25,929 nt of DNA from a virus, in IMG/VR virus record IMGVR_UViG_3300024346_004390, positions 1-25,929 of that record; one strand, given 5' to 3'. Positions 3,531 to 24,118 of this stretch are shown here, in pieces (the first letter of the stretch is position 1; each line of letters opens with the position of its first letter). Under the pieces are notes generated by a model, which was given only the letters and a program-made list of their open reading frames with translations, searched no databases and had not been told where the DNA came from. The translations under genes were made by a program, and so were the position numbers.

Positions 3531-5199
3531 CGATGCGGATATTGATTCCAAGTCTTTCTCCTGCCTCTGTTGCGGAGGCTGTAATGATTTTTCCTGCCTC
3601 TTCAGCAATGCCTTCGGGACATGAGAACTGAAGTTCGTCGTGAACATATGCCATCTGGCGTACCCTACTACCGAACCTAGCCTTGAGGTTCTTGTTGGCA
3701 ACAATCATCCAGTACTTACTTAGCACAGCCCCTGCCCCCTGTAGTAGGGTATTGAGAGCGGCATGTTGTGATCGGATCGGTACTCGTCTGCCGTCAGGCA
3801 GCGTTACCTTCTTGTCCTTAAGGTAGTGGAACTCAACCTCTGCCTTCACCTTAGCTAGAGCGGGTAGAGACTCGAGGAACTTAACCTTGAGTGACTTACC
3901 TTGCTTAGCTGTGCCCTTGATGATCGACCCTACCTTGGCATCTCCAGCCCCATAGAGGAAGCCGTAGATGAATACCTTAGCGGTGTTACGGGTAGGTAGG
4001 CCAGCCATAGTCTGATTGTGTGTGTGGATGTCACCGTTTAGGATGACCTCGCCGTAGGCCCCGCCGTCATACTTGTGCATATAGTGTGCCAGCATTCTCA
4101 GCTCGAGGCCACTAAGGTCTGAACCTAAGATGACCTCGTTGTTGTACACTGGACCCCACAGTTCTCTTGCACGGTGGTCGGTAGCCACTTGTGCCATGTT
4201 AGGCTGAGCGTGGGTACATCTCCCTGTGGCTGCCCCCTGTCCGTTGACTGAGCCGTGGATACGACCGTCTCGGGAGCTAGAAGCCCGCAGTACCCAATCC
4301 TCCACCTGACCGATTAACTTAACGATGTCGAAGTACTGGACTAGCTTCTTAGCTTCGGGGTAGTCAAGATCCTCGAGTGTCTCGGAGTCAACATTAGGGT
4401 TGCCCTTCTCGGTAAGAGGGGCATCCCACCCATACTTAGTGTGCAACCTACTAGCAATCTGTTGTCTAGATCCGGGGTTGAAGACCTCGACTTCATCCTT
4501 CAGGCGCTTGCCGGTCTTCTCTGACCAGCGCTCTCTAACGATAGTAGGGAACACGGTATGCATCTCGTCTTCGATGCCGGCCTTGTCGCCTAGTAACTCC
4601 ATCAGTAACTTCTCACCAGCCTCGACGTTAAAGCCGAAGCCGGTGTTGGTCTGCTCCATTAAGATGGCAGATGATAGATGCTCAAACGCTACGATCTTCT
4701 CGTACTTGTTTTCTTGAATCCACTTGGCTTGCTTAAGGAAGATGTCATGCGCTACATGGACATCCTGTATACAGTAGTCAAGCATCTCTTGTGTAAGCGT
4801 TTCCCATGTACCAGTGTAGTTAGTCTTCTCATTACCTAGGTGTTTACCCCACGCCTCTAGTGAGTTGCCGCCAAGCGGGTGATCTCTAAGGTCTGGGTAC
4901 ATAAGCTTACTAACTATTAGGCTATCGTATACCTTAGCATTAAGCTTGAAGTTAAGTAGCCGTGTCAGACAGGTAAGGTCGAACCCAAGGATGTTATGTC
5001 CAATGAGTAGGGTAGCCTTGTTAAGATCTCTGATGAGGTCAGACTTAAGCTCGTCGCCAGTGTAAACCTTGACCTCGTTGGTATCGATGTTCTTAGTAAC
5101 AACGCAGTGGACTACAGTACCCTCACTAACAGGCCGGCCCTTACTGTCGATCACTAGCTCCATCAACCCGTTAGATTCAATGTCTATCACTAGTTGCAT
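3487..5199 (-). CDS. Family A (T7-like) DNA polymerase with 3'-5' exonuclease
   Basis: This 570-residue replicative polymerase has the proofreading acidic residues D6/E8 (DIESNGL), the Exo II segment GHNILGFDL (67-75) and Exo III YCIQD (142-146). Polymerase motif A is SDLSGLELRML (360-370, D361), motif B runs from R404 to Y416 with Tyr at the Pol I 762 position (Y412, as in T7), and motif C is VHDELQF (519-525). T7 gp5 has about 704 residues; the shortfall suggests that the thioredoxin-binding loop in the thumb is missing, so processivity may be achieved differently. AAGGAGGAG lies just before the ATG. The start lies inside the 3' end of a small coiled-coil gene. Confidence 0.95.
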   Translation of the reverse strand: MQLVIDIESNGLMELVIDSKGRPVSEGTVVHCVVTKNIDTNEVKVYTGDELKSDLIRDLNKATLLIGHNILGFDLTCLTRLLNFKLNAKVYDSLIVSKLMYPDLRDHPLGGNSLEAWGKHLGNEKTNYTGTWETLTQEMLDYCIQDVHVAHDIFLKQAKWIQENKYEKIVAFEHLSSAILMEQTNTGFGFNVEAGEKLLMELLGDKAGIEDEMHTVFPTIVRERWSEKTGKRLKDEVEVFNPGSRQQIASRLHTKYGWDAPLTEKGNPNVDSETLEDLDYPEAKKLVQYFDIVKLIGQVEDWVLRASSSRDGRIHGSVNGQGAATGRCTHAQPNMAQVATDHRARELWGPVYNNEVILGSDLSGLELRMLAHYMHKYDGGAYGEVILNGDIHTHNQTMAGLPTRNTAKVFIYGFLYGAGDAKVGSIIKGTAKQGKSLKVKFLESLPALAKVKAEVEFHYLKDKKVTLPDGRRVPIRSQHAALNTLLQGAGAVLSKYWMIVANKNLKARFGSRVRQMAYVHDELQFSCPEGIAEEAGKIITASATEAGERLGINIRIDAEYKIGSNWAQTH

Positions 5200-5329
5200 C
5201 TAGCTCCTCCTTAAGTTTCTGGATAGCTAAGTTAAGCTTATCAACTAACTTCTTAAGGTGAGCTGTCTCATTCCGAAGATCCAAGATCTCCTGATTCTTC
5301 TTTGTTGACTTCGTTATTCTTGATGCCAT
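5177..5329 (-). CDS. Small coiled-coil protein nested between holin-like and polymerase genes
   Basis: A 50-residue ORF starting at ATG 5329 with AAGGAG seven bases upstream. It overlaps the holin-like gene by 62 bases in another frame and the DNA polymerase start by 23 bases. The protein is lysine-rich at the N-terminus and then shows a leucine heptad helix ([18 protein letters not shown], 15-32, continuing to LKEEL). No signal peptide or membrane segment is visible. Regulation of translation of the polymerase by passage of ribosomes is possible. Function is unknown; the good ribosome-binding site and the helical pattern are the evidence that it is real. Confidence 0.6.
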   Translation of the reverse strand: MASRITKSTKKNQEILDLRNETAHLKKLVDKLNLAIQKLKEELDATSDRH

Positions 5330-5507
5330 GAGTGATCTCCTTTGCTTTAAGTACTGTGCGGCTGATGATATAGGTGAAGGCTAGTGCGCTGCCCATGACC
5401 ATAAGGTACAACCCCATCTCACGGTCACCTTTCATACTCTCTACTAGTCCAGCTAGTACTGGTCCAACTGATACCCAGAACTCGGTGGAGTTAATGCCCG
5501 GCTTCAT
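5268..5507 (-). CDS. Holin-like small membrane protein
   Basis: A 79-residue protein with [16 protein letters not shown] (6-21) followed by a clear hydrophobic segment (about 32-48, [17 protein letters not shown]) and then [10 protein letters not shown] and a polar tail. The STEFW...SRT..K layout recurs in small phage membrane proteins often annotated as holins, which form lesions in the inner membrane at lysis. One sure and one weak transmembrane segment can be seen. There is no endolysin next to it except, possibly, the papain-like protein beyond the polymerase, so a lysis role is only suggested. The stop lies 62 bases inside the nested coiled-coil gene. Confidence 0.5.
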
Positions 5508-5688
5508 CTTGGTACCTCCCGAATCGAATGTCTCTCTCTCCTAGCATGAGGTCAGCAATCCTCGCACACTCAGCTGGTGTGCGTGGTTGTGCCGAATCCC
5601 GGGTAGTACCGGGGTGCATACTCATAGCCATAGTAGCGCTGAAGTATGAATCCCATGCTGCTCTACGCATAATTTCAGATTGGTTCAA
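5491..5688 (-). CDS. Hypothetical protein, 65 aa
   Basis: A short hydrophilic protein, mostly helical by composition, containing [22 protein letters not shown] (split: [13 protein letters not shown] at 36-48, then LGERD). It overlaps the primase-helicase 3' end by 14 bases and the holin-like start by 17 bases, as expected in this tightly packed block. I do not recognise the family. No membrane segment, cysteine pair or nucleotide-binding motif is visible. Confidence 0.6.
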
Positions 5689-7393
5689 AGACTGCTTCTC
5701 CTTCGTCGTTAAAGGCTACATCAATTTCTTGGAGTCTACCACTCATGCGGTCATAGTAAAGAGCGGAAGCAACACCAGATCTACCAGTGAGGCGGTTCTT
5801 CAGGACACGGACGATGGTGGTATTGGCTACCTTCTCGTCTTGGTTCTGTCGATCTCGCTCAAGGGCAATCACCGTATTAGGAACTGAAGCTAAGGCTCCA
5901 GACCCACGGAGATCCTGTAGTGTGATGCGGTCTCCTTCTTCGTATGCCTTGTCTGTCTTCTTAAGCTGTGACACGATGTCAACATGGACTCCTGTTCGTA
6001 CACTGAGTGAGCGTAGCTCCTTCATCAGGGTGTCAATGATCAACCGTTCTGATCCACCGCCCTCAGTATCCTTGTTCTGGATACCCATTAGGCCAGCAGC
6101 TGCTGCTGTGATGTGATCTAGGATGATGACATCAACCTTCAGGGATACTGCCATGTACTCCATACGGGCTAACAGATTCGACATGGCGTTGTTGCCAAGG
6201 TGATCGTAGATGTATAGGGAAGTACCGGCAAGCTTAGCCTTAGCGTCGAGGTACTCTTCTTCGGAGTATGCATCGACGAACTGCACATTGATGGGCGGCT
6301 TGCCCGTCTTAGCTCGTAACTCATTCATCATCGATGCTGCTCTCATTGCTCTCACGGGTTTGTTAATGATAAGGGAAATCATATCATCCATTGTTTCCTG
6401 TGGAGATTCCTCCAACATGATAGCACCAACACTACGGCCATCCTCAAGGTGGTTCATCATAAGTTCACGAAGGATCGTTGACTTACCAGAGCCAGTACCA
6501 GATGCCCACAGTGTAATCTCACCTGATCGTTGACCGATCAAGAACTCACTGAGGTTGTCGAAAGGGAACGGATACACCCGCACCTTACTCTGATCAGTAC
6601 TAGAACAGACAGCTGAGACATGCAAGATCTCATCAGGACTATAGACCTGAGCTTCCCACAGGGCGCTGACGACTTGCCTGCCTAGGTTGGCAAGCAGACA
6701 CTCGTTAGCATCCTTGAGGGAAAGCTTAACGATCTTAGCCTTACCGGGTGGCAGTAGTGCTGACACTTCCTTGGCTGCTTCCTGTCCGGGGCCGTCCATG
6801 TCGAAGCATAGCACAACCTCCTGATAGGTAGATAGGAATGCTAGGTTATCCTTGACAGACTTGACAGCTGACGCTACCCCATTAGGTAGCGACACTACTG
6901 CCCATGTGCCGCCCAGTAGCTGACACACTGTCATGCAATCAATCTCACCTTCAGTGATGATGATTCGCTTACCGCCCTCACGCCACAGATGCTGACCGAA
7001 CAACTGTGTGCCACGGGGTGAACCCTTCCAGATGAACTGCTTGTTGGGTCCACGGATATGCTGAGCCGATAGCTCACCACTCTGGTTGTAGTAGTTAGCA
7101 ATCTCGATGTCCTTACCGTTGGCCACAGCTACCTGATAGTCGTACTTACGGGCGATGTCTTCATGGATTCGTCGGTGAGTAAGCTCACTATACGATCCTT
7201 GGATAGGCTTGAAGTCTACTGCGACTAAGTTGATCTCTGTCATTTGTTTAGTTCCTCCTGTGTGGTACTTACACGCAAAACAATAACCATGTCCGTCACT
7301 ATAGATAGCGAGGTTATCTCCGCTTCTATCGTTACCCTCCGCCGCACACTTAGGGCAGCGGTCTTTACCGATAACAACTACATCTTCATTCAA
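5675..7393 (-). CDS. Bifunctional DNA primase-helicase (T7 gp4-like)
   Basis: Read from a TTG at 7393 this gives 572 residues, close to T7 gp4 (566). A zinc-binding primase domain has CPKC (13-16) and CFAC (38-41); a TOPRIM domain has TEGEID (148-153) and DMDG (198-201); the hexameric helicase has Walker [10 protein letters not shown] (about 298-306) and a Walker B strand VDVIILDHI. It synthesises primers and unwinds the fork. AGGAGG lies five bases before the TTG; the longer ATG frame at 7450 has no ribosome-binding site. An internal ATG at 7243, just past the zinc fingers, has its own AGGAGG, so a helicase-only product like gp4B is predicted. Confidence 0.93.
7251..7266 (-). promoter_or_regulatory. 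Internal ribosome-binding site for a helicase-only product
   Basis: The minus strand reads ACCACACAGGAGGAAC here, with AGGAGG ten bases before an in-frame ATG at 7243 that lies just after the zinc-binding motif. The same 16 bases occur at 7396-7411, ahead of the main TTG start. In T7 the internal start of gene 4 likewise separates full-length primase-helicase from a helicase lacking the zinc domain. Confidence 0.6.
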
Positions 7394-7559
7394 GGGTTCC
7401 TCCTGTGTGGTCGTAGTAACATTTGATTGATCCGTTGGCAATGCCATCAAGGAATGATGTCAGCTGGTGCATTAGGAACTTGTCCTCTGGCTCCGTCTGT
7501 TCATTCACGATGGCAATCATCTGATACAGTTTCGTCTTGTCGATAGGGCACGGGCTCAT
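7386..7559 (-). CDS. Hypothetical protein, 57 aa
   Basis: An ORF from ATG 7559, which overlaps the deaminase stop as ATGA, to a TGA that overlaps the primase TTG start by eight bases. The protein begins MSPCPIDKTKLYQMIAIV and is a soluble, helical, mildly acidic sequence with no recognised motif. It fills exactly the gap that would otherwise exist between deaminase and primase. Its last codons contain the primase ribosome-binding site, so translation of this ORF may couple to the primase. Real expression is inferred from this tiling, not from homology. Confidence 0.55.
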   Translation of the reverse strand: MSPCPIDKTKLYQMIAIVNEQTEPEDKFLMHQLTSFLDGIANGSIKCYYDHTGGTLE

Positions 7560-7906
7560 AGTTTAACTAAGACTCCTTTGTCATTGGTGTACCATACTTC
7601 ATCGAACAGTTCGCAGACCCAAGGCATACAATACTTGCATGGCTTGGACATCCCAAGTTTCTTTGTTGGGCTGATTCTAAAGTTCATCAGTGTCATACCT
7701 CTTAAGGATTTTTGTTTCTTCGTGAGTTGTCGATACGCATCGAACTCACTATGAATGGTGGGGTAGGGGTAGCCCATCTCCTTAGCAAGGGGGTGGGTCT
7801 TTGCCCTGTCCTCCGTACCGTGTGAGATGATCTTGTTCTTATACAGAATGAGCGAGTGATGTGTTCTGTCCTCTCTCTCGCCCACTATGAATGAGTTAAA
7901 GTTCAC
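7556..7906 (-). CDS. Cytidine/deoxycytidylate deaminase-like protein
   Basis: A 116-residue protein with the zinc-ligand pattern of the cytidine deaminase superfamily: HSEFDA (52-57, H52 ligand and E54 proton shuttle) and SKPCKYC (87-93, C90 and C93). Deamination of dCMP or (deoxy)cytidine would supply dUMP or its precursor to the adjacent ThyX, a common phage pairing. Start is a GTG at 7906 inside the end of thyX; GGAGG lies a rather long 13 bases upstream, so coupling to ThyX translation probably matters. The substrate cannot be told from sequence; a nucleic-acid editing role is formally possible but less likely. Confidence 0.68.
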   Translation of the reverse strand: MNFNSFIVGEREDRTHHSLILYKNKIISHGTEDRAKTHPLAKEMGYPYPTIHSEFDAYRQLTKKQKSLRGMTLMNFRISPTKKLGMSKPCKYCMPWVCELFDEVWYTNDKGVLVKL

Positions 7907-8659: not shown

Positions 8660-9343
8660 TTAGTTGGTCGGTGTCCATGCCTCTAAGAGTAGAGTCATGT
8701 CAGCTGCGCTGGTTGTACCGTCTCCAGTCACATCCCCCAGTGGGGTGTTCCATGCTACGGTAAGCATAGCTAGATCAGCACTGTTGACGGCACCATCCAT
8801 GTTGAGGTCAGCAGCCGCATAGTAGTGGCACCCAAACTCACCATGAGTGTGAGCCCGAATGTTAACACCGATAGAGTGTCTAACCCACGGAGTACTGAGG
8901 GTCTCAATATCCTCTGGCATACTCCACAGTAGCACCTGTTCGGTACTAGTTGTAGAGATGACGAGAGGTAGTAGTGAGTCGAACATGATCTCATTCTTGA
9001 ATGTGAACCAGTGCTTCCACCCGGCCTCTACTAGATCTAGTCGCTGTGCCTCGAGGTCTGCATGACATGAGGCGGGATACGATAGCTTGATACGCCACGA
9101 CTTATTAGCGTCGTAACGATCAGAGCTTAGATCAATGGCGAACCCTGCATCTCTGTCAGAGCCGTTAACACAGGTGATCACCGTACCATTTGCCTCGACG
9201 GCAGATATGGCTCCCAGTTGACCACTGGTTATGATTGCGTTGCCCGTAGATTCCATGTGACCAATGTGATTAAGATGACGGACATGATCTAGGTTAATTG
9301 GTAGGAGCCTCAGCCCCACGTAAAGATAATACATTGTTGTCAT
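8660..9343 (-). CDS. Dockerin-repeat protein with an unrecognised N-terminal domain
   Basis: A 227-residue protein. The last 50 residues hold two dockerin type I/EF-hand-like calcium-binding repeats, DLNMDGAVNSADLAMLTVAW (179-198) and DVTGDGTTSAADMTLLLEAW (204-223), with the DxNxDG...DL..L pattern. The first 175 residues are beta-rich by composition and unrecognised. No convincing signal peptide is seen. Such repeats are abundant in planctomycete extracellular proteins and rare in phages. AAAGGAA precedes the ATG by six bases. The gene lies between two tRNA genes and next to a second dockerin gene, together looking like a host-derived cargo block. A virion or cell-surface role is possible; function is unknown. 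Confidence 0.75.
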   Translation of the reverse strand: MTTMYYLYVGLRLLPINLDHVRHLNHIGHMESTGNAIITSGQLGAISAVEANGTVITCVNGSDRDAGFAIDLSSDRYDANKSWRIKLSYPASCHADLEAQRLDLVEAGWKHWFTFKNEIMFDSLLPLVISTTSTEQVLLWSMPEDIETLSTPWVRHSIGVNIRAHTHGEFGCHYYAAADLNMDGAVNSADLAMLTVAWNTPLGDVTGDGTTSAADMTLLLEAWTPTN

Positions 9344-9585: not shown

Positions 9586-10389
9586 TTATTGATCACATAC
9601 ACCACAGTGGGGACACGGCCCCCATGCGGATAGTAGGATTGATAAATCTTGAGTGTCAACTCCGCCGTCATGGTTGAAGTCTCCAAACTGGGGGTCTATT
9701 AGTCCCCCCCAGTTCTGCATTAAGAGGGCAAGGTCGGTTGCGTTAACCTCCACATTTCCATTCTCGTCTGTACCAGACAGGTTCCCGATGCACTCACAGT
9801 CATCGGGAATAAAGTTATGGTTGTAATCACTACAGAGAACGTCTAAGATCTCAGCAAGATCAACGATGCCGTTGCTATTGCAGTCGCTCTCATACTCAGC
9901 TAGGTAAGTTCTAACCATCTCGTTTCCACACGGAACAGAACACTGGCCGGTTGGAAGCGTGTCCCAACACATGACCGGACCAATCACACACTCTTGATTA
10001 CGGAACATGAGGTAGTTACTACATCCATTGGGGGGCGAGTACATACCACCCAACCACGGTGACCATGACCACGGCTCGTCTCGTACCCATTTCCATACCC
10101 CGTCTTCCTTATAGGCACCAATCCACGGGCCGAAGACTCCGTTCCATCCGCCCCTAGTAGTTCTAATAACGTTCTGAAGTACCCAGACTGACTCAGCCTC
10201 CGTTGTTAATGTGGCTAAGTGTCCGTTGGTTTGATTCAATGCGCCCACAGAATCTGACCAGCTCTTATTAGTTCCACTGAGGATACCGTAGACGTGACCA
10301 TTGCCTCCGTCCTCTACACGCCAGATGACCCACTTAGTGGGGGGCGCTGATACGAGAATACTTGCGATAATAGATGTCATAATAATCAT
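9586..10389 (-). CDS. Secreted C-type lectin-like protein with dockerin repeats
   Basis: A 267-residue protein starting at ATG 10389 (AAGGA eight bases upstream; ATGA overlap with the previous gene). Residues 1-16 form a short hydrophobic signal-peptide-like segment (MTSIIASILVSAPP from residue 4). Residues about 43-167 resemble a C-type lectin domain (SWSDSVGALNQTNGHLATLT, WIGAYKEDGVWKWV, final YLAEYE). A DCNSNGIVDLAEI segment (169-181) and two dockerin-like repeats (208-228 and 237-257, the latter DFNHDGGVDTQDLSILLSAW) follow, then a Cys-rich end. Lectin plus 'DCNxNGxxD' plus dockerin is a planctomycete extracellular signature. Likely calcium- and glycan-binding, exported from the infected cell; role in infection unknown. 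Confidence 0.75.
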   Translation of the reverse strand: MIIMTSIIASILVSAPPTKWVIWRVEDGGNGHVYGILSGTNKSWSDSVGALNQTNGHLATLTTEAESVWVLQNVIRTTRGGWNGVFGPWIGAYKEDGVWKWVRDEPWSWSPWLGGMYSPPNGCSNYLMFRNQECVIGPVMCWDTLPTGQCSVPCGNEMVRTYLAEYESDCNSNGIVDLAEILDVLCSDYNHNFIPDDCECIGNLSGTDENGNVEVNATDLALLMQNWGGLIDPQFGDFNHDGGVDTQDLSILLSAWGPCPHCGVCDQ

Positions 10390-10733
10390 GGTGTTTCCTT
10401 GTAGCAGTCCCATCCCCGATCTTCCGCACATTCTGCTTGATCATCAACATGGTAATAGGTAGAATAAATTGCGGACAAATTACAAACCTCACGCCGCGCC
10501 TCGTCCCGTTCCTCACGGAGTTTGTCGCGCTCCGTGCGAATTGTCTGCCAGTTGATATCGGCGGCTGTCAGCCACATCTTGTGTTGGACAAGCTCCTCTC
10601 GAAGGTCTTTGAGGTCTTCCTTAAGTGCTCTGTTCCACAGGCAAACCCCCATGATTCCCATGTGGTCTGCCCAAGGCACACCGCACGATGCACATGTTGG
10701 TTTGGGTTCGTTACTAATAGCGTCTCTGGTCAC
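10386..10733 (-). CDS. Hypothetical protein with zinc-knuckle-like N-terminus and coiled coil
   Basis: A 115-residue protein starting with GTG at 10733, overlapping the upstream stop as GTGA. It has CASCGVPW (14-21) with further His/Cys residues (H24, C31), a long charged helix (about 36-85, many E/R/K heptads), and a C-terminal ECAEDRGWDCYKE motif like those that end small phage proteins of unknown function. The cysteine pair plus H/C could bind one zinc ion. It is immediately upstream of the lectin-dockerin gene and co-translated with it. Confidence 0.65.
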   Translation of the reverse strand: MTRDAISNEPKPTCASCGVPWADHMGIMGVCLWNRALKEDLKDLREELVQHKMWLTAADINWQTIRTERDKLREERDEARREVCNLSAIYSTYYHVDDQAECAEDRGWDCYKETP

Positions 10734-11945: not shown

Positions 11946-12487
11946 TAGAATGGAATCTCGTCATCAGTAATCCCTACTGTCGGATCCTTGCTGAACTTTG
12001 CTGGCGCTTCCGCTGCGGTACCGACGAAGCCGCCGTCCACAGTAGAGAATCCATTAGTCGTAACAACCGCCACAGCGTTCTTCTGAACAATCTGTACTCC
12101 ATTGAGGTAGAAGGACATGGACTTGTTAGCGCCCTTGACCACGGTGAATGGCCCAAGGCGGAGGCGAACAACATCGGTTGCCCACGGAACTTCTTCCGTG
12201 TACTGAGCTGTTGCATCCTGACATGGGAACTTCGTCATGCCCTTCTTAGCAAACTGGTTAGACTTGAATGAGATGGCACGGATACCGTCCTTCTCATAGA
12301 TGCCGTTGATCTTCTTGACCCCGTTCTCCTTAGCAACAGCGTTGAGCTGAGCCTCGAGTTCCTTGGTCAGAAGGACGGTGATGTTATGCACACCCTCGTC
12401 GCTGAAGCGGGTGTCCAACTTATTAAGGTTGGACCACTTGACTTCGATCTGCGCTGTCACGATACCCTTGATGCGTTCATTGGCCAT
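11945..12487 (-). CDS. Single-stranded DNA-binding protein (T7 gp2.5-like)
   Basis: A 180-residue beta-rich protein with an acidic, aromatic C-terminal tail (ITDDEIPF), the hallmark by which gp2.5 and bacterial SSB proteins contact polymerase and helicase. Context is typical: after RNA polymerase and before the resolvase, primase-helicase and polymerase. Basic and aromatic residues in the core (e.g. AISFKSNQFAKKGMTKFP) fit an OB fold. It coats template strands and recruits replication partners. Overlaps the preceding small gene by 11 bases. Assignment rests on tail, size and synteny more than on core motifs. Confidence 0.75.
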   Translation of the reverse strand: MANERIKGIVTAQIEVKWSNLNKLDTRFSDEGVHNITVLLTKELEAQLNAVAKENGVKKINGIYEKDGIRAISFKSNQFAKKGMTKFPCQDATAQYTEEVPWATDVVRLRLGPFTVVKGANKSMSFYLNGVQIVQKNAVAVVTTNGFSTVDGGFVGTAAEAPAKFSKDPTVGITDDEIPF

Positions 12488-12674
12488 TTGTGTCGTTATC
12501 CTTGTTGATGTTATCGATGTTGCCGTCTACATATGCCTTGACTTCGGTAAGAGTTGCCTGCCAGTTAGCAAGGCACTGAGAGATCTGTCCCAGTACCGAT
12601 ACAACTTCATCAGCACGGATGATCTTCATCTTCTCGTCTGGGGTTCCTACTACGCCTGTTTGTTCATCACTCAT
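12477..12674 (-). CDS. Hypothetical protein, 65 aa
   Basis: A small acidic protein beginning MSDEQTGVVGTPDEKMKII, with a helical middle (VSVLGQISQCLANWQATLTE). It is linked by ATGA to the HExxH protein upstream and overlaps the SSB start by 11 bases. No family recognised. Its start resembles, in the first five residues only, that of the gene at 17257-17520. Confidence 0.55.
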   Translation of the reverse strand: MSDEQTGVVGTPDEKMKIIRADEVVSVLGQISQCLANWQATLTEVKAYVDGNIDNINKDNDTNGQ

Positions 12675-13039
12675 GGGGTTTCCTTTAATAGAGCACTTGA
12701 AAGAATGTTAATAAACTGTTCCGCTGCCAGTTCCCAGTGCTCATCGGGAACTTTGGTAGCGAAGCCAGCTGCTGCTTCGAGAGGGAAAAGGCTTAGGTGC
12801 AGAAGCTCATGCACCAAAGTCTGGATTGGAAGGTCTGTCTTGTCAATGGCTAGGTTGACATGGTACTTAGGGTGGAGGATCATGATACTAGACACCATGT
12901 GATTGGGGTCGAAGTCATTAGATCCATAAGCTTGAGGGTGGTCTGTTGGTTTAGACCAGTTCACGCTTATCTTCCACTGCTGTAGTCCAAGTCTGCCTTG
13001 CCAGAACTTACATTCCTTACGCAATTGTGTGATGTTCAC
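12671..13039 (-). CDS. HExxH zinc-metallopeptidase-like protein
   Basis: A 122-residue protein with LVHELLHL (75-82): H77, E78 and H81 form the HExxH zinc site on a predicted helix. A downstream acidic helix (EHWELAAEQFINIL) may supply a third ligand, E103 or nearby. The size and the N-terminal WQGRLGLQQWKISV resemble small phage-encoded minimal metallopeptidase-fold proteins. Whether it cleaves a host protein, such as a repressor or defence factor, cannot be told. Overlaps the phosphoesterase and the following gene as ATGA. Confidence 0.6.
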   Translation of the reverse strand: MNITQLRKECKFWQGRLGLQQWKISVNWSKPTDHPQAYGSNDFDPNHMVSSIMILHPKYHVNLAIDKTDLPIQTLVHELLHLSLFPLEAAAGFATKVPDEHWELAAEQFINILSSALLKETP

Positions 13040-13692
13040 AGGTCCATTAACTCCAAATATGGTTGACCGTCAATCACAACACCACAGGACACAATGGGCT
13101 TCTTAAGGAATGATGCCCCGTAGGACATCAATGGGTGGTTACGATCCACTCCAGACCCAACACTCATGCCGAACAACTTAGTGTTCGGCCCACAGATCCA
13201 GTTGATGCTAGCCACACTGTGGTAGTGACCGATCACAACACTTTGAAGTCGCATCTTCGCAGCGTTGAATGCTGGATACTGTGAACTAGCGCCCACCCCA
13301 TGATAGAAGTGAACCCCGTCAAACTCTACTGACCGTACCCAATCCCATGTCGGGGTGTTGTACACCTCAGCATAGCCCTTGAGGTAGCAGTCAGGGATAC
13401 CAGAGTCAGCAGCCAGACGAGCAACTCGCTCGTCGTGATTGCCGATGGTAACAGTAGCCGTAGGAAATGCACGGCTCCACTTAGTGATGCCCTTCATAGC
13501 CTGATGGTACTCATCCATTGCAGCGGGATGCTCTGGATGCTTCTTATGGAAGGAGATCGACGCATGATCCACCACATCACCAATGAATACAGTGTTGTTA
13601 GTCTTGTATTTGTCCCTTATTTTCCTCACAAAGTCAAGGTACTTAGGGTGGGTGGCAGGGCAGTGAAGATCACCGATGATTAAAGTTCGCAT
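13036..13692 (-). CDS. Calcineurin-like metallophosphoesterase
   Basis: A 218-residue enzyme with the complete metallophosphoesterase motif series: GDLH (7-10), GDVVDH (38-43), GNHDE (84-88), YHG (130-132) and GHYHS (155-159). These residues hold two metal ions for phosphoester hydrolysis. The ATG at 13692 has GGAGG four bases upstream; an upstream frame extension lacks one. It overlaps the previous small gene by 23 bases. Phage members of this superfamily include nucleases, phosphatases and cyclic-nucleotide hydrolases; substrate is not evident here. It lies between RNA polymerase and the SSB. Confidence 0.85.
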   Translation of the reverse strand: MRTLIIGDLHCPATHPKYLDFVRKIRDKYKTNNTVFIGDVVDHASISFHKKHPEHPAAMDEYHQAMKGITKWSRAFPTATVTIGNHDERVARLAADSGIPDCYLKGYAEVYNTPTWDWVRSVEFDGVHFYHGVGASSQYPAFNAAKMRLQSVVIGHYHSVASINWICGPNTKLFGMSVGSGVDRNHPLMSYGASFLKKPIVSCGVVIDGQPYLELMDL

Positions 13693-13864
13693 TGAACCTC
13701 CACAGATCAGCGATGCTTGGATCTCCCTCGTACACATCGACTTCACCACGGCGGTGAGCCTTCTGTGTTTCATTCAGGTGAGAGATGTCATCGTATGTGA
13801 ACACCTTACCATTTGGCCTTACTAAGTCAGTCTTCTTCTTCTTCATCGGTGGAAGTTCTTCCAT
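13670..13864 (-). CDS. Hypothetical protein, 64 aa
   Basis: Begins at ATG 13864 with AGGAGG nine bases upstream; overlaps neighbouring genes by 38 and 23 bases. The protein starts MEELPPMKKKKTDLVRPNG, basic first and then polar (FTYDDISHLNETQKAHRRG). A second in-frame ATG at 13846 is possible but lacks a ribosome-binding site. No recognised family. Confidence 0.55.
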   Translation of the reverse strand: MEELPPMKKKKTDLVRPNGKVFTYDDISHLNETQKAHRRGEVDVYEGDPSIADLWRFNANFNHR

Positions 13865-14108
13865 GATTTTTATCCTCCTCTACAAAGATGTCAAGTACGA
13901 CATGGTTAACCTTCTTAGCCTTCTTAGCCTCGAGGTATTGGATTAGAAACTCTAGCAACGTCTTGTGAACGAACGGCGTTGAGCACAAGAACCTAAGGGT
14001 TACCTTCTCACGGGGTGGCGGGTCTAGCATCATGGTGTTGTAGATTAGTAACACTGATGCTTCGATTGCCCCCTCACAATTAACTAGAACAACTTCGTCT
14101 TCTTTCAA
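13827..14108 (-). CDS. Hypothetical protein, 93 aa
   Basis: Probably starts with TTG at 14108, overlapping the RNA polymerase stop as TTGA; the ribosome-binding site is weak, so translational coupling is inferred. The protein has mixed alpha/beta character (VTLRFLCSTPFVHKTLLEFL) and a very acidic C-terminus (DEEEED). Function unknown. The 3' end overlaps the next gene by 38 bases. Confidence 0.55.
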   Translation of the reverse strand: MKEDEVVLVNCEGAIEASVLLIYNTMMLDPPPREKVTLRFLCSTPFVHKTLLEFLIQYLEAKKAKKVNHVVLDIFVEEDKNHGRTSTDEEEED

Positions 14109-16585
14109 TGGAAGAAGTACTCGCTTTCTAATACCTGATTGATGTCGAGATCCCCTCTAGGCGGTAGGGGATCAAGGGTAATGTTATACCGTGTCTCCCA
14201 CTCAGTCTTAAGCTTCTCAAAGAGGGGCTCTTGATGAATGAGAACGAATGTCTCTCGAGTAACTCGACGCATCGTGTCGATGTTCGGGCCGTGTGTACCG
14301 AATGAGTCGTGGATGAAGCAGTACTCGGTGATGTCTCCCATACCTTCGATGGTAATGAACATATGGGATGAATCAAACGAGTGGATGACATTGGGGGAGA
14401 TGCCATTACGGTGATCTGCTTTCTCTATCCCACTCTTATCGAACTGGGATATTAAGATTGTCTCTACTGGCTGCCCCTTAGTTCTAGCGCTTCTCTTATT
14501 CCCGATGGTGTACTTAGCGGACACTGTCGGGAAGTACTCCTGTTTAACGAGGAAGCCACTAGGTGTTGTCCATGAGGGGTGATTACCTGAATCAACAATC
14601 ATGTTACTAGCGTCACGCACCCACTTCTTATAAGAGTTGGCGGTGACTAGCACCGAATCCTTTGCAAGACAGATGATCTTGGTAAGCCCTGTGGCTGCCA
14701 AGTTCTTGTCCTTCTCGGTAAACCCAGATAGAAAGCCATCGGCTAATAGACCCTGCTTAATACCAGCAACCGTCACACCATATGGATCCGTCATCACTGA
14801 CCTCTTAACAACCTTACGCCACTTCTTAGGTGTGTCGTAGATTGAAGCGAATGAGAGATGCCACGGATCTATAGGAGTAGAGACGATGTCAACACATTTG
14901 TTAGCAACATCTAGGTAGATGTCTTCTGGTGTAGCACAAGGCAATAGGTTAACCTTACGACCGACATGAGAATCTCTAGTCACTGCTGCCCACCACTGGA
15001 TGCCATTACAACTACCGTCCATCTGAATAGGTAACTGTGTCATGCCGTCCTTGCGGAACAACTCGAACACAGCGGCCAACTTCTGAAAGGACTTATCCTT
15101 CTTGATACGATCCTCTTCGTTAGATGCCCACAACTTGAGGTTACCTAGAGGATCCTCATTGATTAACGATAGCATCTTTATGTTATCGTCAACCCACTTT
15201 ACACGATCATCGAAACTTACCTTGTCTTGATCAAAGCAGTTAGCGGTATGTACCTTGAGCCAGTACATACCACGCTCTGTCTGAGGAATAGTATTAGCAA
15301 ACAACATGAGAGACCGATCATGGTCACCCGACTGCGGTGACAAGAGATCAGTCGTAGCATAAGCACGGCCACGGAAGTCACAGGTGTAGACATGGAAGAA
15401 TGTAAGCTTAGCCTTGACTAGGTCTCTGGCTATACGAAGACGGAGGAATGTCCGTTGTCTATCGTTCTCTCTTTCATGCCAACGATTGTAAGCAAGGATC
15501 TTGGTGAACTTGAACTGTCTAATGTCCTCCTTGTCAGTACTCTCACACCGTGTGTTGTTAAGTAGTAGTTCACACTGCTCCAACTCAGGTATGTTACCAT
15601 ACCCAGATGAAGACTTGAACATCTCATCCATCACTGCTAGTACCTTTTCATTAACAGCCCACTCAGTAGCCATGAGTTTGTTAAGGCCGTCGATAGTCAA
15701 CTGACTAGGCACGGACTCACGGTACCTTGTGGATATTTCACCACCCACAAAGTAAACCTCAGCCCTACCTACTGCACCCTTCCGTAACTGAACCATCAAG
15801 GCACCGCCCGTTTCACCAATCTTATGAGGGATGGGTGGAACAATCATAGGACGGTACTTCATAGCACAGTTCTCCATGAAGTGCGAGTGTGCTACTGTTA
15901 AGCCATGCTCAACATCAGCTGAGAAGCTGATGATACTAACCTTCTTAGCATTAGTGTTAGAGTCGATGACCAACCGCCTAGTGATGATGCCAGCCACCTC
16001 AAGGATCTTACACAGATGCAGACCAAGGTTGGCTCGTTCCTTTACGGACAAGTGAATGTGAGAGGATGGGGGGTACTTCTTCAAGAACCTTTTAACAGCA
16101 CGGGGTGTCCACTGTTTAATGATTGAAGACACATAGTTCCAATCCTTCCGATGCTCTTTCTGGGTTAGTGTGTACTCAGCAGTTTGACACAGTTCTTGTA
16201 TCATCTGACGAATGAACACTACCTCAGCCACACTACCATATGCAATGCGTAGATCCCTAATGTCGTGACGACGAGACAGAATCATTGTCTTATACGCAGT
16301 CATCAGGAGTGAGTGAGCCACCCTACATGGTCCAAGTTCCACGATTGGTGTGAAGGATGAAACTTTCTGAATAGGTAGAGAATCTAGATAGTTAAGGATA
16401 GCCTCAGCCACGGTAGTAATTAACTCCCTAGTTAACTGTCTCTCTGGTGACCCATCCCCCGGACTTCTAATATGGTTGTCAATGTATGATGCCATTGACA
16501 TATCCATAATCTCTTCTTCGTTTGCTAGTTGAAGGGATAGCAGCCGCGCCTTCTCACTTGGTGTCTTATCTTGCCATAAGGTCAT
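14105..16585 (-). CDS. T7-type single-subunit DNA-dependent RNA polymerase
   Basis: An 826-residue polymerase (T7: 883). Catalytic motifs are intact: motif A MDGSCNGIQ (522-530, D523), motif B KRSVMTDPYG (594-603, K594 and the nucleotide-selecting Y602), and HDSFGTHG (759-766, H759/D760). The N-terminus LANEEEIMDMSMASY matches the early helix of T7 gp1 in style. In-frame ATGs at 16660 and 16750 would add 25 or 55 residues; 16585 is preferred because the candidate promoter lies at 16640-16659 and AAGGG precedes 16585, though at loose spacing. It would transcribe the middle and late genes and marks this as a T7-like phage. Ends in HSFD-type thumb/finger context and FFH at the C-terminus (T7 ends FAFA). 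Confidence 0.96.
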   Translation of the reverse strand: MTLWQDKTPSEKARLLSLQLANEEEIMDMSMASYIDNHIRSPGDGSPERQLTRELITTVAEAILNYLDSLPIQKVSSFTPIVELGPCRVAHSLLMTAYKTMILSRRHDIRDLRIAYGSVAEVVFIRQMIQELCQTAEYTLTQKEHRKDWNYVSSIIKQWTPRAVKRFLKKYPPSSHIHLSVKERANLGLHLCKILEVAGIITRRLVIDSNTNAKKVSIISFSADVEHGLTVAHSHFMENCAMKYRPMIVPPIPHKIGETGGALMVQLRKGAVGRAEVYFVGGEISTRYRESVPSQLTIDGLNKLMATEWAVNEKVLAVMDEMFKSSSGYGNIPELEQCELLLNNTRCESTDKEDIRQFKFTKILAYNRWHERENDRQRTFLRLRIARDLVKAKLTFFHVYTCDFRGRAYATTDLLSPQSGDHDRSLMLFANTIPQTERGMYWLKVHTANCFDQDKVSFDDRVKWVDDNIKMLSLINEDPLGNLKLWASNEEDRIKKDKSFQKLAAVFELFRKDGMTQLPIQMDGSCNGIQWWAAVTRDSHVGRKVNLLPCATPEDIYLDVANKCVDIVSTPIDPWHLSFASIYDTPKKWRKVVKRSVMTDPYGVTVAGIKQGLLADGFLSGFTEKDKNLAATGLTKIICLAKDSVLVTANSYKKWVRDASNMIVDSGNHPSWTTPSGFLVKQEYFPTVSAKYTIGNKRSARTKGQPVETILISQFDKSGIEKADHRNGISPNVIHSFDSSHMFITIEGMGDITEYCFIHDSFGTHGPNIDTMRRVTRETFVLIHQEPLFEKLKTEWETRYNITLDPLPPRGDLDINQVLESEYFFH

Positions 16586-16639
16586 ACAGGTTTCATCCCT
16601 TCTGGGTTGGTGTAATAATTTTTTAGGTGTGAGAGAGTA

Positions 16640-16663
16640 CTCTGTTATGCTTGTAGGCATCTC
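16640..16663 (-). promoter_or_regulatory. Repeated 20-nt element, copy 2 (candidate phage-polymerase promoter)
   Basis: Exact copy of TGCCTACAAGCATAACAGAG on the minus strand, 55 bases before the polymerase ATG and inside the only gene-free gap of the neighbourhood. It is flanked by an imperfect inverted repeat (TTAGGTGAGA on one side, TCTCACACCTAA on the other) that could put the element in a hairpin loop. Autoregulated transcription of the polymerase gene would fit. Confidence 0.5.
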
Positions 16664-16682
16664 ACCTAAGGTATTCACCCCA

Positions 16683-16841
16683 CTAGATCTCAATCCAATC
16701 GTTCTCGAATCCATCCTCTGGTCCGCCACGAATGCGGTCAACCAGTTCACGTTGAATGCTTGGCAGATTCTCGATGATACTGATGCGTCGATGCAACTCG
16801 ACCGCCAGTAGTTCCATCATCTCTTCATTCGTCATCGACAT
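16683..16841 (-). CDS. Hypothetical protein, 52 aa
   Basis: Start chosen at ATG 16841, where GAGGA stands eight bases upstream; ATGs at 16835 and 16877 are alternatives. The product, beginning MSMTNEEMMELLAVELHRR, is a helical acidic protein ending in a Gly-rich, acidic tail. It is the last small gene before the RNA polymerase. No family recognised. Confidence 0.55.
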   Translation of the reverse strand: MSMTNEEMMELLAVELHRRISIIENLPSIQRELVDRIRGGPEDGFENDWIEI

Positions 16842-18394: not shown

Positions 18395-18931
18395 TTAGTT
18401 AGGGGTGACAATAATCGTCGATGAGCCACACGACTCATCATCATTCAACCATCCAGCAATCTGCATTCCTTCTTCCTTGTAGAACCAATTGATGTGGATC
18501 TCAGGGAAGTTCCGACGAATCCAAGCGTAGATCTCTTCGGGTGGATTCCATGCCGTATCGAAGGAGAGGCGGGCTTCTCCGAATTCCTCACTCAGTCCAC
18601 AGTACTCAACAAAGTGGGCATCCCACTTGCAGCCCCAACGGGATAAGCACCAATCATACCAATTGGCTGCGCCGTATTCCTCATACAGTGCGGTGATTTG
18701 ATCATCACCAATGCCCGTCTGAGTCCCGTCTGCATTCTCGTACCACTCAGTGTATACTACACCGTTGATGGTGATGCCACCACTATGGGTGAGAGTAAGG
18801 GCAGTAGGGATTGGCAAGAGGTTATTAAACTTAAAGTCTTCCGCCTCAATACCAGACACCTCAATAAATTTCTTGAAAACTTCGGGGTTATCACATGAGA
18901 ATGTTACTTCATTCTGGCACCAGTTAGGCAT
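18395..18931 (-). CDS. Api92-like protein (ferredoxin-like, DUF1281/YubB type)
   Basis: A 178-residue protein beginning MPNWCQNEVTFSCDNPE and containing FNNLLPIPTAL, AANWYDWCLSRWGCKWDA and FDTAWNPPEEI. This is the conserved layout of the Api92-like family found in phages and plasmids; its biochemical role is not established. Start at ATG 18931, AGGA eight bases upstream, one-base TAATG overlap with the previous gene. Neighbouring DUF3846-like gene is also a recurrent mobile-element family. Confidence 0.8.
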   Translation of the reverse strand: MPNWCQNEVTFSCDNPEVFKKFIEVSGIEAEDFKFNNLLPIPTALTLTHSGGITINGVVYTEWYENADGTQTGIGDDQITALYEEYGAANWYDWCLSRWGCKWDAHFVEYCGLSEEFGEARLSFDTAWNPPEEIYAWIRRNFPEIHINWFYKEEGMQIAGWLNDDESCGSSTIIVTPN

Positions 18932-19266
18932 TAGATTGATCCTGTCCAACGGAGATAGATCTCCATTAGTTGAAGGTGTTGATCGGGATCGATGGAGAGG
19001 GTATCACCTTCTTCATCATGAGCAGTAAGGAGGGCATCACCATATAGGGTCTGACCTGAAAGATAGGAAGCAAACGCATTGATGAACTTAGGATCCTTGA
19101 AGAGACCCTCTTCATCAACGATGAGATCAAGAGAGTTGGGGATGCGGGGCATGTGTACCATCTCGAAGTAATCAGCACCGATCAACTCTGCGAAGTTGAA
19201 CAGACTCTTGTCTTGGTTGAAGTAGATGGGTGGCTGCCCCACCTTGAGGAGGATAAGATTAATCAT
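18931..19266 (-). CDS. DUF3846-like protein
   Basis: A 111-residue protein with LIGADYFEMVHMP, LIVDEEGLFKD and LSGQTLYGDALLT, matching in order the pattern of DUF3846 (surface residue index, 'DEEG', then 'GDALL' near the C-terminus). The family is common in plasmids and phages and has no established function. One-base TAATG overlaps on both sides. Confidence 0.65.
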   Translation of the reverse strand: MINLILLKVGQPPIYFNQDKSLFNFAELIGADYFEMVHMPRIPNSLDLIVDEEGLFKDPKFINAFASYLSGQTLYGDALLTAHDEEGDTLSIDPDQHLQLMEIYLRWTGSI

Positions 19267-22628: not shown

Positions 22629-22889
22629 TTAGTCCCTCTCGATCTGGGTATAGTACCCTAGTGAACCCGTGATTCGGTCTGTACCCTTACGGTACACTAG
22701 TACCTCAAACTCACGCTCACCCCCTGATGAGCGTTGCATTGATATACCAGTATCAACACGGTCTGTGTTGATAAGATCGAGGTGCGATCTAATGAGACGC
22801 ATGACCTCATCGCGAGTCCCACACCAGCCAACTGGCTGGCTCAGGTCTTCACCGTGTGGTGTGAAGACGACCTTGAAGTTGTTACACAT
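22629..22889 (-). CDS. Hypothetical protein, 86 aa
   Basis: ATG 22889 with GGAGGG six bases upstream. Starts MCNNFKVVFTPHGEDLSQPV; central RDEVMRLIRSHLDLINTDR helix; C-terminal EFEVLVYRKGTDRITGSLGY. Unrecognised. Confidence 0.58.
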   Translation of the reverse strand: MCNNFKVVFTPHGEDLSQPVGWCGTRDEVMRLIRSHLDLINTDRVDTGISMQRSSGGEREFEVLVYRKGTDRITGSLGYYTQIERD

Positions 22890-23259
22890 CGGTTCCCTCC
22901 ATCTTCCTGATCTGCTGCGACAGACCGTATAGCCGCATCTCAAGGCGAGAGACAAGGCTTGCCGCCTCAAGGCGGCTGACCTCAGCCGCCGCCGCTGTCA
23001 CTACTGTAGCCTCCGATGCGATACGGGCGTGATTCAGGTATTCCCTGCACGACACCCGCAGATCAATCAATTCATCGAGAGTCCGTACACCAGACTCTTT
23101 CTGAAGGGTGGTTAGTTCCTTCATCATGTCAACTCTCATCTCCCCTAACACCACGATGGTGTCTCCCGCCTGAGATGGCGGGAGATGGTACATCTCCGCA
23201 TCAGCACGGTCAAGCCGTGCAAGATGTGACTCCAACCTCTTGATTTTTTCAAGGCTCAT
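22882..23259 (-). CDS. Coiled-coil hypothetical protein rich in hairpin-forming codons
   Basis: A 125-residue helical protein (MSLEKIKRLESHLARLDRAD..., AEVSRLEAASLVSRLEMRLY). AAGGAGGAG precedes the ATG, which overlaps the previous stop as ATGA. Its DNA holds many perfect inverted repeats, e.g. 22961-22976, 22971-22990, 23162-23185, 23181-23197 and 23204-23220. Function unknown. Confidence 0.62.
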   Translation of the reverse strand: MSLEKIKRLESHLARLDRADAEMYHLPPSQAGDTIVVLGEMRVDMMKELTTLQKESGVRTLDELIDLRVSCREYLNHARIASEATVVTAAAAEVSRLEAASLVSRLEMRLYGLSQQIRKMEGTDV

Positions 23260-23810
23260 CGCGACTCCTCCTTGTTAACGGTGAATGTACTGATGTCGCG
23301 AGCGAACTCACGCATCTCTTCGAGCGAGAGTTCAACGCCTCGCTTGTTGGCGGGGAGATCCAACTCCACCACCACCACGCTACAACACATCGCTGCCAAG
23401 TTAAGTGGCAGTACACCCGCAACTCGACGCCCCCTGAGTTGGGTGTCGCCGTCTGTCACATGACTAAGAACCTGAGTGGAGGCATCAGCATAACCCTTCT
23501 CGATGAGATACAGGACGAGGCTATGGTGACGGGTCACCACTAGGTCTACCTTATTAGGAGCGGGGTCTACACCCCATCCCAGATCCCGTTGAGCGTATTC
23601 CCACTCAGACCTTGCCTCCTCCTCAGCCTGCCACTCGGCTGCCCATCGTGCTGACTGAGCACGGAGTGCAACCAGCACCGCCTCATGGGCTTCAGCCCAA
23701 CCGTATTGGGCGGGAGTCTTCCAGATCTCCTCTTGAATAGCCCAAAGACGGTTGATCTCCGCCTCCTCTGCCGCCGTATCTCGATGGCGCTTTGAGATGG
23801 GGTCGCTCAT
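23256..23810 (-). CDS. Csx16-like (type III CRISPR-associated) domain protein, candidate ring nuclease
   Basis: A 184-residue protein. Residues 1-85 are a charged, Trp/Ala/Glu-rich helical region. Residues 88-177 match the layout of the Csx16/VVA1548 family: VDLVVTRHHSLVLYLIEKG (88-106), HV (117-118), GRRVAGVLPLNLAA (127-140), VELDLPANKRGVELSLEEM (148-166) and a final ISTFTV. Csx16 occurs beside type III CRISPR loci and, as I recall, has been reported to cleave cyclic oligoadenylate. In a phage early region it would be expected to switch off the host's cOA signal, an anti-CRISPR role. GAGG lies seven bases before the ATG; coupled by ATGA on both sides. The match is by eye; catalytic residues are not established here. 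Confidence 0.7.
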   Translation of the reverse strand: MSDPISKRHRDTAAEEAEINRLWAIQEEIWKTPAQYGWAEAHEAVLVALRAQSARWAAEWQAEEEARSEWEYAQRDLGWGVDPAPNKVDLVVTRHHSLVLYLIEKGYADASTQVLSHVTDGDTQLRGRRVAGVLPLNLAAMCCSVVVVELDLPANKRGVELSLEEMREFARDISTFTVNKEESR

Positions 23811-24010
23811 CGAGCCACCTCACACAATTCGCGGGTCGATGACCCGTCTTGACGAGTCAAGATGCGCCACTCGTTACCATCCCGATCCACATAGCGGGTG
23901 ATCACGGTATTCGCCGCCTTCCCCGCCGCATTGCGGCTAGAACGGGTGCTGCCGCGCTTAGCGCGGTGTAACTTGCTAGCGCCGATGATCGAACTGAACT
24001 TAGTAGGCAT
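23807..24010 (-). CDS. Small basic protein, 67 aa
   Basis: ATG 24010 with GGAG eight bases upstream, behind structured leader 1. A strongly basic N-terminal half (SKLHRAKRGSTRSSRNAAGK) suggests nucleic-acid binding; the C-terminal half is beta-like (VITRYVDRDGNEWRILTRQD). Several perfect hairpins lie in its coding sequence (23832-23862, 23952-23966). Precedes the Csx16-like gene with ATGA coupling. Confidence 0.62.
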   Translation of the reverse strand: MPTKFSSIIGASKLHRAKRGSTRSSRNAAGKAANTVITRYVDRDGNEWRILTRQDGSSTRELCEVAR

Positions 24011-24118
24011 GGGGTAAACTCCATTAGAGGGAAGGTGGTAGAACGGCATTGATAGAGTTATCAATGTCGAGTGAGTGCGGAAAGGCTAGGATACCCGTCA
24101 AGGTAGCGAAGCCGTTGG
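24011..24118 (-). promoter_or_regulatory. Structured leader 1
   Basis: Homologous to leaders 2 and 3. In transcript order: a hairpin at 24084-24113 (GGCT/AGCC outer and TACC/GGTA inner stems with a CGTCAA loop, plus strand), the box CTTTCCGCACTCA, a second hairpin at 24047-24066 (CATTGAT/ATCAATG), then CCTTCCCTCTAATGGAGTTT and the ATG. Confidence 0.6.

Follow-up and report, generated by a model that had tools for sequence, protein, structure and literature searches.

This locus raises the question of whether a phage with a T7-like RNA polymerase encodes, ahead of that polymerase, an enzyme able to shut down type III CRISPR signalling. The stretch of DNA analyzed (the window) is a virus record of 25,929 bases, which encodes a T7-like RNA polymerase, a DNA polymerase and a primase-helicase, and further a dUTPase, ThyX and a 5'-3' exonuclease-like protein, the last below the Pfam cut-off. 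The phage origin assumed in the initial annotation is borne out by this gene content. The features used below are:

14105-16750, minus strand: T7-like RNA polymerase, 881 aa (PF00940, E 1.7e-81; phrog_414, E 1.6e-147)
22882-23259, minus strand: downstream gene, 125 aa, no confident family; its start shares a 4-nt ATGA overlap with csx16
23256-23810, minus strand: csx16-like gene, viral-type Csx16 with an N-terminal extension; ATG start, 184 aa (PF09652, 63.9 bits; PADLOC Csx16, 2.5e-15)
23277-23540, minus strand: Csx16 domain, residues 91-178; full-length profile match, conserved residues, domain model with pLDDT 95.4
23553-23810, minus strand: N-terminal helical extension, residues 1-86; helices 12-31 and 38-79, coding signal, no known relatives
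23807-24064, minus strand: upstream gene, up to 85 aa, no confident family; its stop overlaps the csx16 start by 4 nt
23815-23821, minus strand: Shine-Dalgarno-like GAGGTGG, 4 nt ahead of the ATG, read from the sequence

The Csx16 domain and its genomic setting

Membership of the 184-aa protein in the Csx16 family is directly established. PF09652 (Cas_VVA1548/Csx16) matches residues 91-178 with an E value of 1.7e-17 and 63.9 bits (Pfam cut-off 25 bits), positions 2-90 of the 91 profile positions being covered, and the PADLOC Csx16 model agrees (2.5e-15). PF09652 is the sole Pfam match at E values up to 1, and the AcrIII-1 domain PF08960 was not found. TIGR02620, the NCBIfam equivalog for Csx16 of CRISPR loci, scores 19.2 bits only, below its cut-off of 46.35 bits; of the two profiles to which the initial annotation had appealed, the first recognizes the protein and the second hits it only weakly. 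Such a low TIGR02620 score is in line with a divergent subfamily, and does not point to a spurious hit. PF09652 matches all 59 aligned homologues, TIGR02620 43 of them (best E 1.5e-10), and the copy from an Allochromatium CRISPR locus scores 113 bits on the latter profile.

The Csx16 motifs that had been picked out by eye are all present and in the order given, and the composite motif occurs once in the window, never in 200 shuffles. The signature residues are T93-R94-H95, H117, G132/L134/P135 and R157-G158-x-E160-L161. H95, G132, L134, P135 and G158 are invariant across the 59 homologues, T93, R94, H117 and R157 nearly so; the window protein keeps each of them, as well as the family-conserved L161. 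The conserved set is common to Csx16 of CRISPR loci, but S replaces T at the first position there. Residues T93, R94, H95, H117, R157 and G158, the putative active site, are all retained.

Modelled alone, the domain reaches a pLDDT of 95.4 and a pTM of 0.84. Foldseek comparison of the full model and of the domain with PDB and BFVD gave no significant match, and a sequence search of solved structures yielded nothing relevant. The top PDB entries for the domain, neither significant, are the cA4-bound CARF protein Cad1 (E 0.3) and Cam1 (E 1.0), and the similarity of the predicted fold to Cad1 is only suggestive. In a published DALI comparison, too, the similarity of a modelled Csx16 to a viral Crn2 homologue was no more than modest (Z 4.8; PMC12409355).

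The RNA polymerase gene lies about 6.5 kb downstream of csx16, on the same strand. In T7-like phages the stretch upstream of the RNA polymerase gene is the early region, and csx16 can on this ground be placed among the early genes, as had been proposed. It is surrounded by many small genes without confident domains. Cas effector genes were not recognized in the window, and scans for promoters and terminators gave results at chance level.

A sister contig (L095) encodes a DNA polymerase 96% identical to that of the window, the early region falling outside its coverage. An Api92-like protein with a DUF1281 domain is encoded in the window at 18395-18949 (minus strand); since its relative in L095 is found at a different place (7218-7721), this gene was moved or exchanged. 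Beside the phage nucleotide-metabolism genes reside two genes, at 8660-9343 and 9586-10431 (both minus strand), coding for proteins with C-terminal type I dockerin domains (PF00404). These proteins are not present in L095, and dockerin proteins were found in 4 of 46 related phage records. Their layout recalls secreted proteins of planctomycetes, and may hint at the host.

The N-terminal extension

Residues 1-86 very probably belong to the translated protein, because a Shine-Dalgarno-like GAGGTGG precedes the ATG, the gene overlaps its neighbors by 4 nt on both sides, codon usage across these residues is like that of the Csx16 domain and other phage genes, and the two other reading frames contain stops. 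AlphaFold2 predicts helices at 12-31 and 38-79, followed by the confidently predicted domain. The helical region described in the initial annotation is confirmed by these data, at about 86 residues. A start inside the gene, at GTG 91 or 92, was judged untenable, as part of the first strand would be lost, and ATG 1 has a good Shine-Dalgarno-like site and the 4-nt overlaps.

Relatives of the extension were found neither in the phage collection nor in a peptide-pattern scan of viral contigs. The fusion had been regarded as unusual, yet fusions of this sort recur: N-terminal extensions, unrelated to that of the window, are carried by about nine further viral Csx16 proteins, and extensions of 60-80 aa are known in some phage and plasmid Crn4 proteins (PMC12830947). 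The extensions vary in type. Those of four viral Csx16 proteins (L039, L068, L080 and L086) are zinc-ribbon-like by cysteine pattern, with weak or absent Pfam matches; that of L073 is winged-helix-like (MarR_2, E 4e-4, below cut-off); the N-terminal part of the viral Csx16 protein at L067:9689-10003 resembles, on visual inspection, a MazG-type all-alpha pyrophosphatase with its E-rich helices, but has no Pfam match.

Viral and plasmid relatives

Csx16 relatives reside in 72 viral contigs of IMG/VR, and correspond to 64 distinct proteins, two alignment-based scan rounds being combined. The first round, in which an alignment of the window domain and three plasmid copies was used, detected 38 viral contigs, the second 69. 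Scans of the viral contigs with single proteins (window, Deinococcus and Allochromatium sequences) found nothing, because lone sequences yield narrow peptide patterns; alignments succeeded. A six-sequence alignment was discarded as a query, being too diverse. When Csx16 proteins of CRISPR loci were aligned and used as query, one viral contig was found, resembling an archaeal plasmid copy. In prokaryotes, the paired scan, which covered 84,980 genomes (257 Gb), revealed one locus, in Meiothermus luteus, with patterns slightly stricter than the viral ones, exactly those patterns matching 21 of the 72 viral contigs. In Deinococcota, matches were found in two genomes, and include plasmid copies already found. 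There is thus a group of Csx16 proteins, little described before, residing mostly in phages and plasmids and not in bacterial CRISPR loci, as judged from queries of the mobile-element type, from pattern scans that are not exhaustive and from a small sample of CRISPR loci.

In a tree built on 91 columns, a split with support of 99/97 sets three copies from CRISPR loci and one archaeal plasmid copy apart from every viral copy and the remaining plasmid copies. The window protein is on the viral and plasmid side, within which branching order is not supported. Grouping of the Methanobacterium virus PhiF3 copy with those of CRISPR loci was not rejected in a tree test.

Copies from CRISPR loci adjoin csm6, cas1, cas6 or cmr6, and a phage could have acquired the gene there, carrying it as a passenger of no use to itself. 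Such a passenger gene is very improbable. The Cas10 palm domain is missing in all of the 49 Csx16-bearing virus records tested (a terminase was found in 24 of them, a lower bound obtained with one PHROG profile), just as no cas effector was recognized in the window. Moreover, the viral subfamily is widespread and diverged and has kept the conserved residues, which implies selection in viruses, and csx16 in the window shows no disruption and forms part of a compact operon. AcrIII-1 (PF08960) is likewise missing in the 49 records.

Two of the 49 records (L070 and L072) are T7-like. In L070, whose genome is indicated to be complete by a 127-base exact overlap of its ends, csx16 is located about 9 kb upstream of the RNA polymerase gene, the distance being measured across the genome junction. 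In L072 csx16 is about 9.7 kb upstream of the gene for an RNA polymerase 34% identical to that of the window, followed by a metallophosphatase gene whose product is 58% identical to its window counterpart. A metallophosphatase scan revealed 55 related loci. Among the 44 metallophosphatase-linked records searched, 42 encode a T7-type RNA polymerase and one, L072, a Csx16; many of the 44 are fragments, and L072 alone has Csx16 among those of at least 55 kb. By this distribution csx16 is a patchy accessory gene in its phage group, as would be expected for counter-defence.

One phage of the group (L101, IMGVR_UViG_3300044591_000410) has two T7-type RNA polymerase genes, at 3683-5716 and 11961-14441, and a second, more distant T7-type RNA polymerase is found also in several other records of the same group.

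Proposed function and known ring nucleases

One Csx16, a CRISPR-locus member, degrades cyclic tetra-adenylate (cA4), and not cA6, in EDTA buffer (PMC12409355). Since cA4 ring nuclease activity is proven for one member and the window protein keeps the conserved residues, the viral ring nuclease suggested in the initial annotation is the best-supported reading, and the phage protein would most likely serve to destroy cA4 early in infection. We hold this viral-type ring nuclease to be the best explanation of the locus, and probably the correct one. The host would sense phage RNA through a type III CRISPR system, whose Cas10 makes cA4. The Csx16 domain, which would probably act as a dimer, would bind this signal at a surface formed by the conserved T-R-H, H and R-G-x-E-L residues, and cut it, in a metal-free reaction, into short linear oligoadenylates. 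Effectors activated by cA4 would remain off, and the phage would survive.

The protein might instead act as a sponge, binding cA4 tightly, perhaps as a multimer held by the N-terminal helices, and sequestering the signal while cleaving it scarcely or not at all. Csx15, which published work places together with Csx16, has been characterized as an effective cA4 sponge that is very slow as a nuclease (PMC13148439), phage sponges are known for other nucleotide signals (PMC12409355, PMC13148439), and the predicted helices of the extension could promote assembly. The tested Csx16, however, degrades cA4 at a 100-fold excess of substrate (PMC12409355), and the polar conserved residues are kept here; type III systems make so much signal that sponging has been argued to be unprofitable (PMC13148439). 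We regard a sponge as improbable.

The specificity of the viral-type subfamily could have changed relative to Csx16 of CRISPR loci, and the protein, as a ring nuclease or phosphodiesterase, might act on a different cyclic nucleotide, whether cA3, cA5, cA6 or a CBASS signal; it would then be aimed at a defence other than type III CRISPR signalling by cA4. The divergence of the subfamily from CRISPR-locus Csx16 is in line with such a shift, as is the cleavage of several cyclic oligoadenylates by Crn4 (PMC12830947). Yet the proposed site is lined by the motifs found also in Csx16 of CRISPR loci, whose tested member is specific for cA4, and little weight is given to this possibility.

The subfamily as a whole, enriched in phages and plasmids and endowed with variable N-terminal modules, is most likely made up of type III anti-CRISPR ring nucleases. 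A further proposal, rather unlikely as it stands, is that the unrelated modules are targeting or oligomerising adaptors through which the ring nuclease reaches a complex of the host, perhaps that of Cas10, and that viral Csx16 is a distinct virus-based subfamily, a modular type III anti-CRISPR class from which Csx16 of CRISPR loci may have been recruited.

The known viral ring nucleases are few. Proven ones are AcrIII-1 and AcrIII-2; phage copies of Crn4b, Csx16 and Csx20 are proposed ones (PMC12751052). Against this small set stand 72 environmental viral contigs with a separate Csx16 subfamily, which a comparable search hardly detects in prokaryote genomes and which is easily missed because it scores below the NCBIfam cut-off. 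If active, these proteins would represent a widespread type III anti-CRISPR and provide ready candidates for assay, and would point to phages being under pressure from type III CRISPR more often than isolate genomes show.

The window protein shares with Csx16/Cas_VVA1548 (PF09652, TIGR02620) the full-length domain and the T/S-R-H, H, G-x-LP and R-G-x-E-L motifs. It differs from Csx16 of CRISPR loci in being phage-borne, away from cas genes, in the extension of about 86 residues, in scoring below the TIGR02620 cut-off, and in residing on the opposite side of the supported tree split. Location in a phage, also regarded as unusual in the initial annotation, has precedents: Csx16 was found in 2 of 28,114 phage genomes (PMC12409355), and ORF30 of PhiF3 is annotated as Csx16, with no cas genes beside it in the stretch seen. 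PhiF3, in contrast, is an archaeal virus, and its protein stands alone (104 aa), is 33.7% identical to that of the window over the matched part, and has an unsure place in the tree. The closest named relatives, 42-47% identical, reside in plasmids pDEIPR02 (Deinococcus) and pMESIL02 (Allomeiothermus), and like the window copy have no cas genes in the stretches read. The pDEIPR02 copy stands alone, whereas those of pMESIL02, a Meiothermus-type plasmid, are embedded in larger proteins, one of 671 aa with an N-terminal Csx16 domain (L014:99-2114, minus strand), the other of 261 aa with a pair of Csx16 domains, of which the second has diverged and lost several conserved residues (L003:6055-6840, plus strand).

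If the proposed function is correct, the window protein would resemble AcrIII-1, the viral Crn2 homologue (PF08960), as a viral enzyme destroying cA4 (PMC12409355), but the two belong to different families, PF08960 not being found in the window protein. AcrIII-2 (viral SAVED) and, as proposed, phage or plasmid Crn4b are likewise viral ring nucleases related to CRISPR-associated proteins (PMC12830947); they differ from the window protein in fold and family, and AcrIII-2 is biochemically proven, whereas the protein described here is a candidate.
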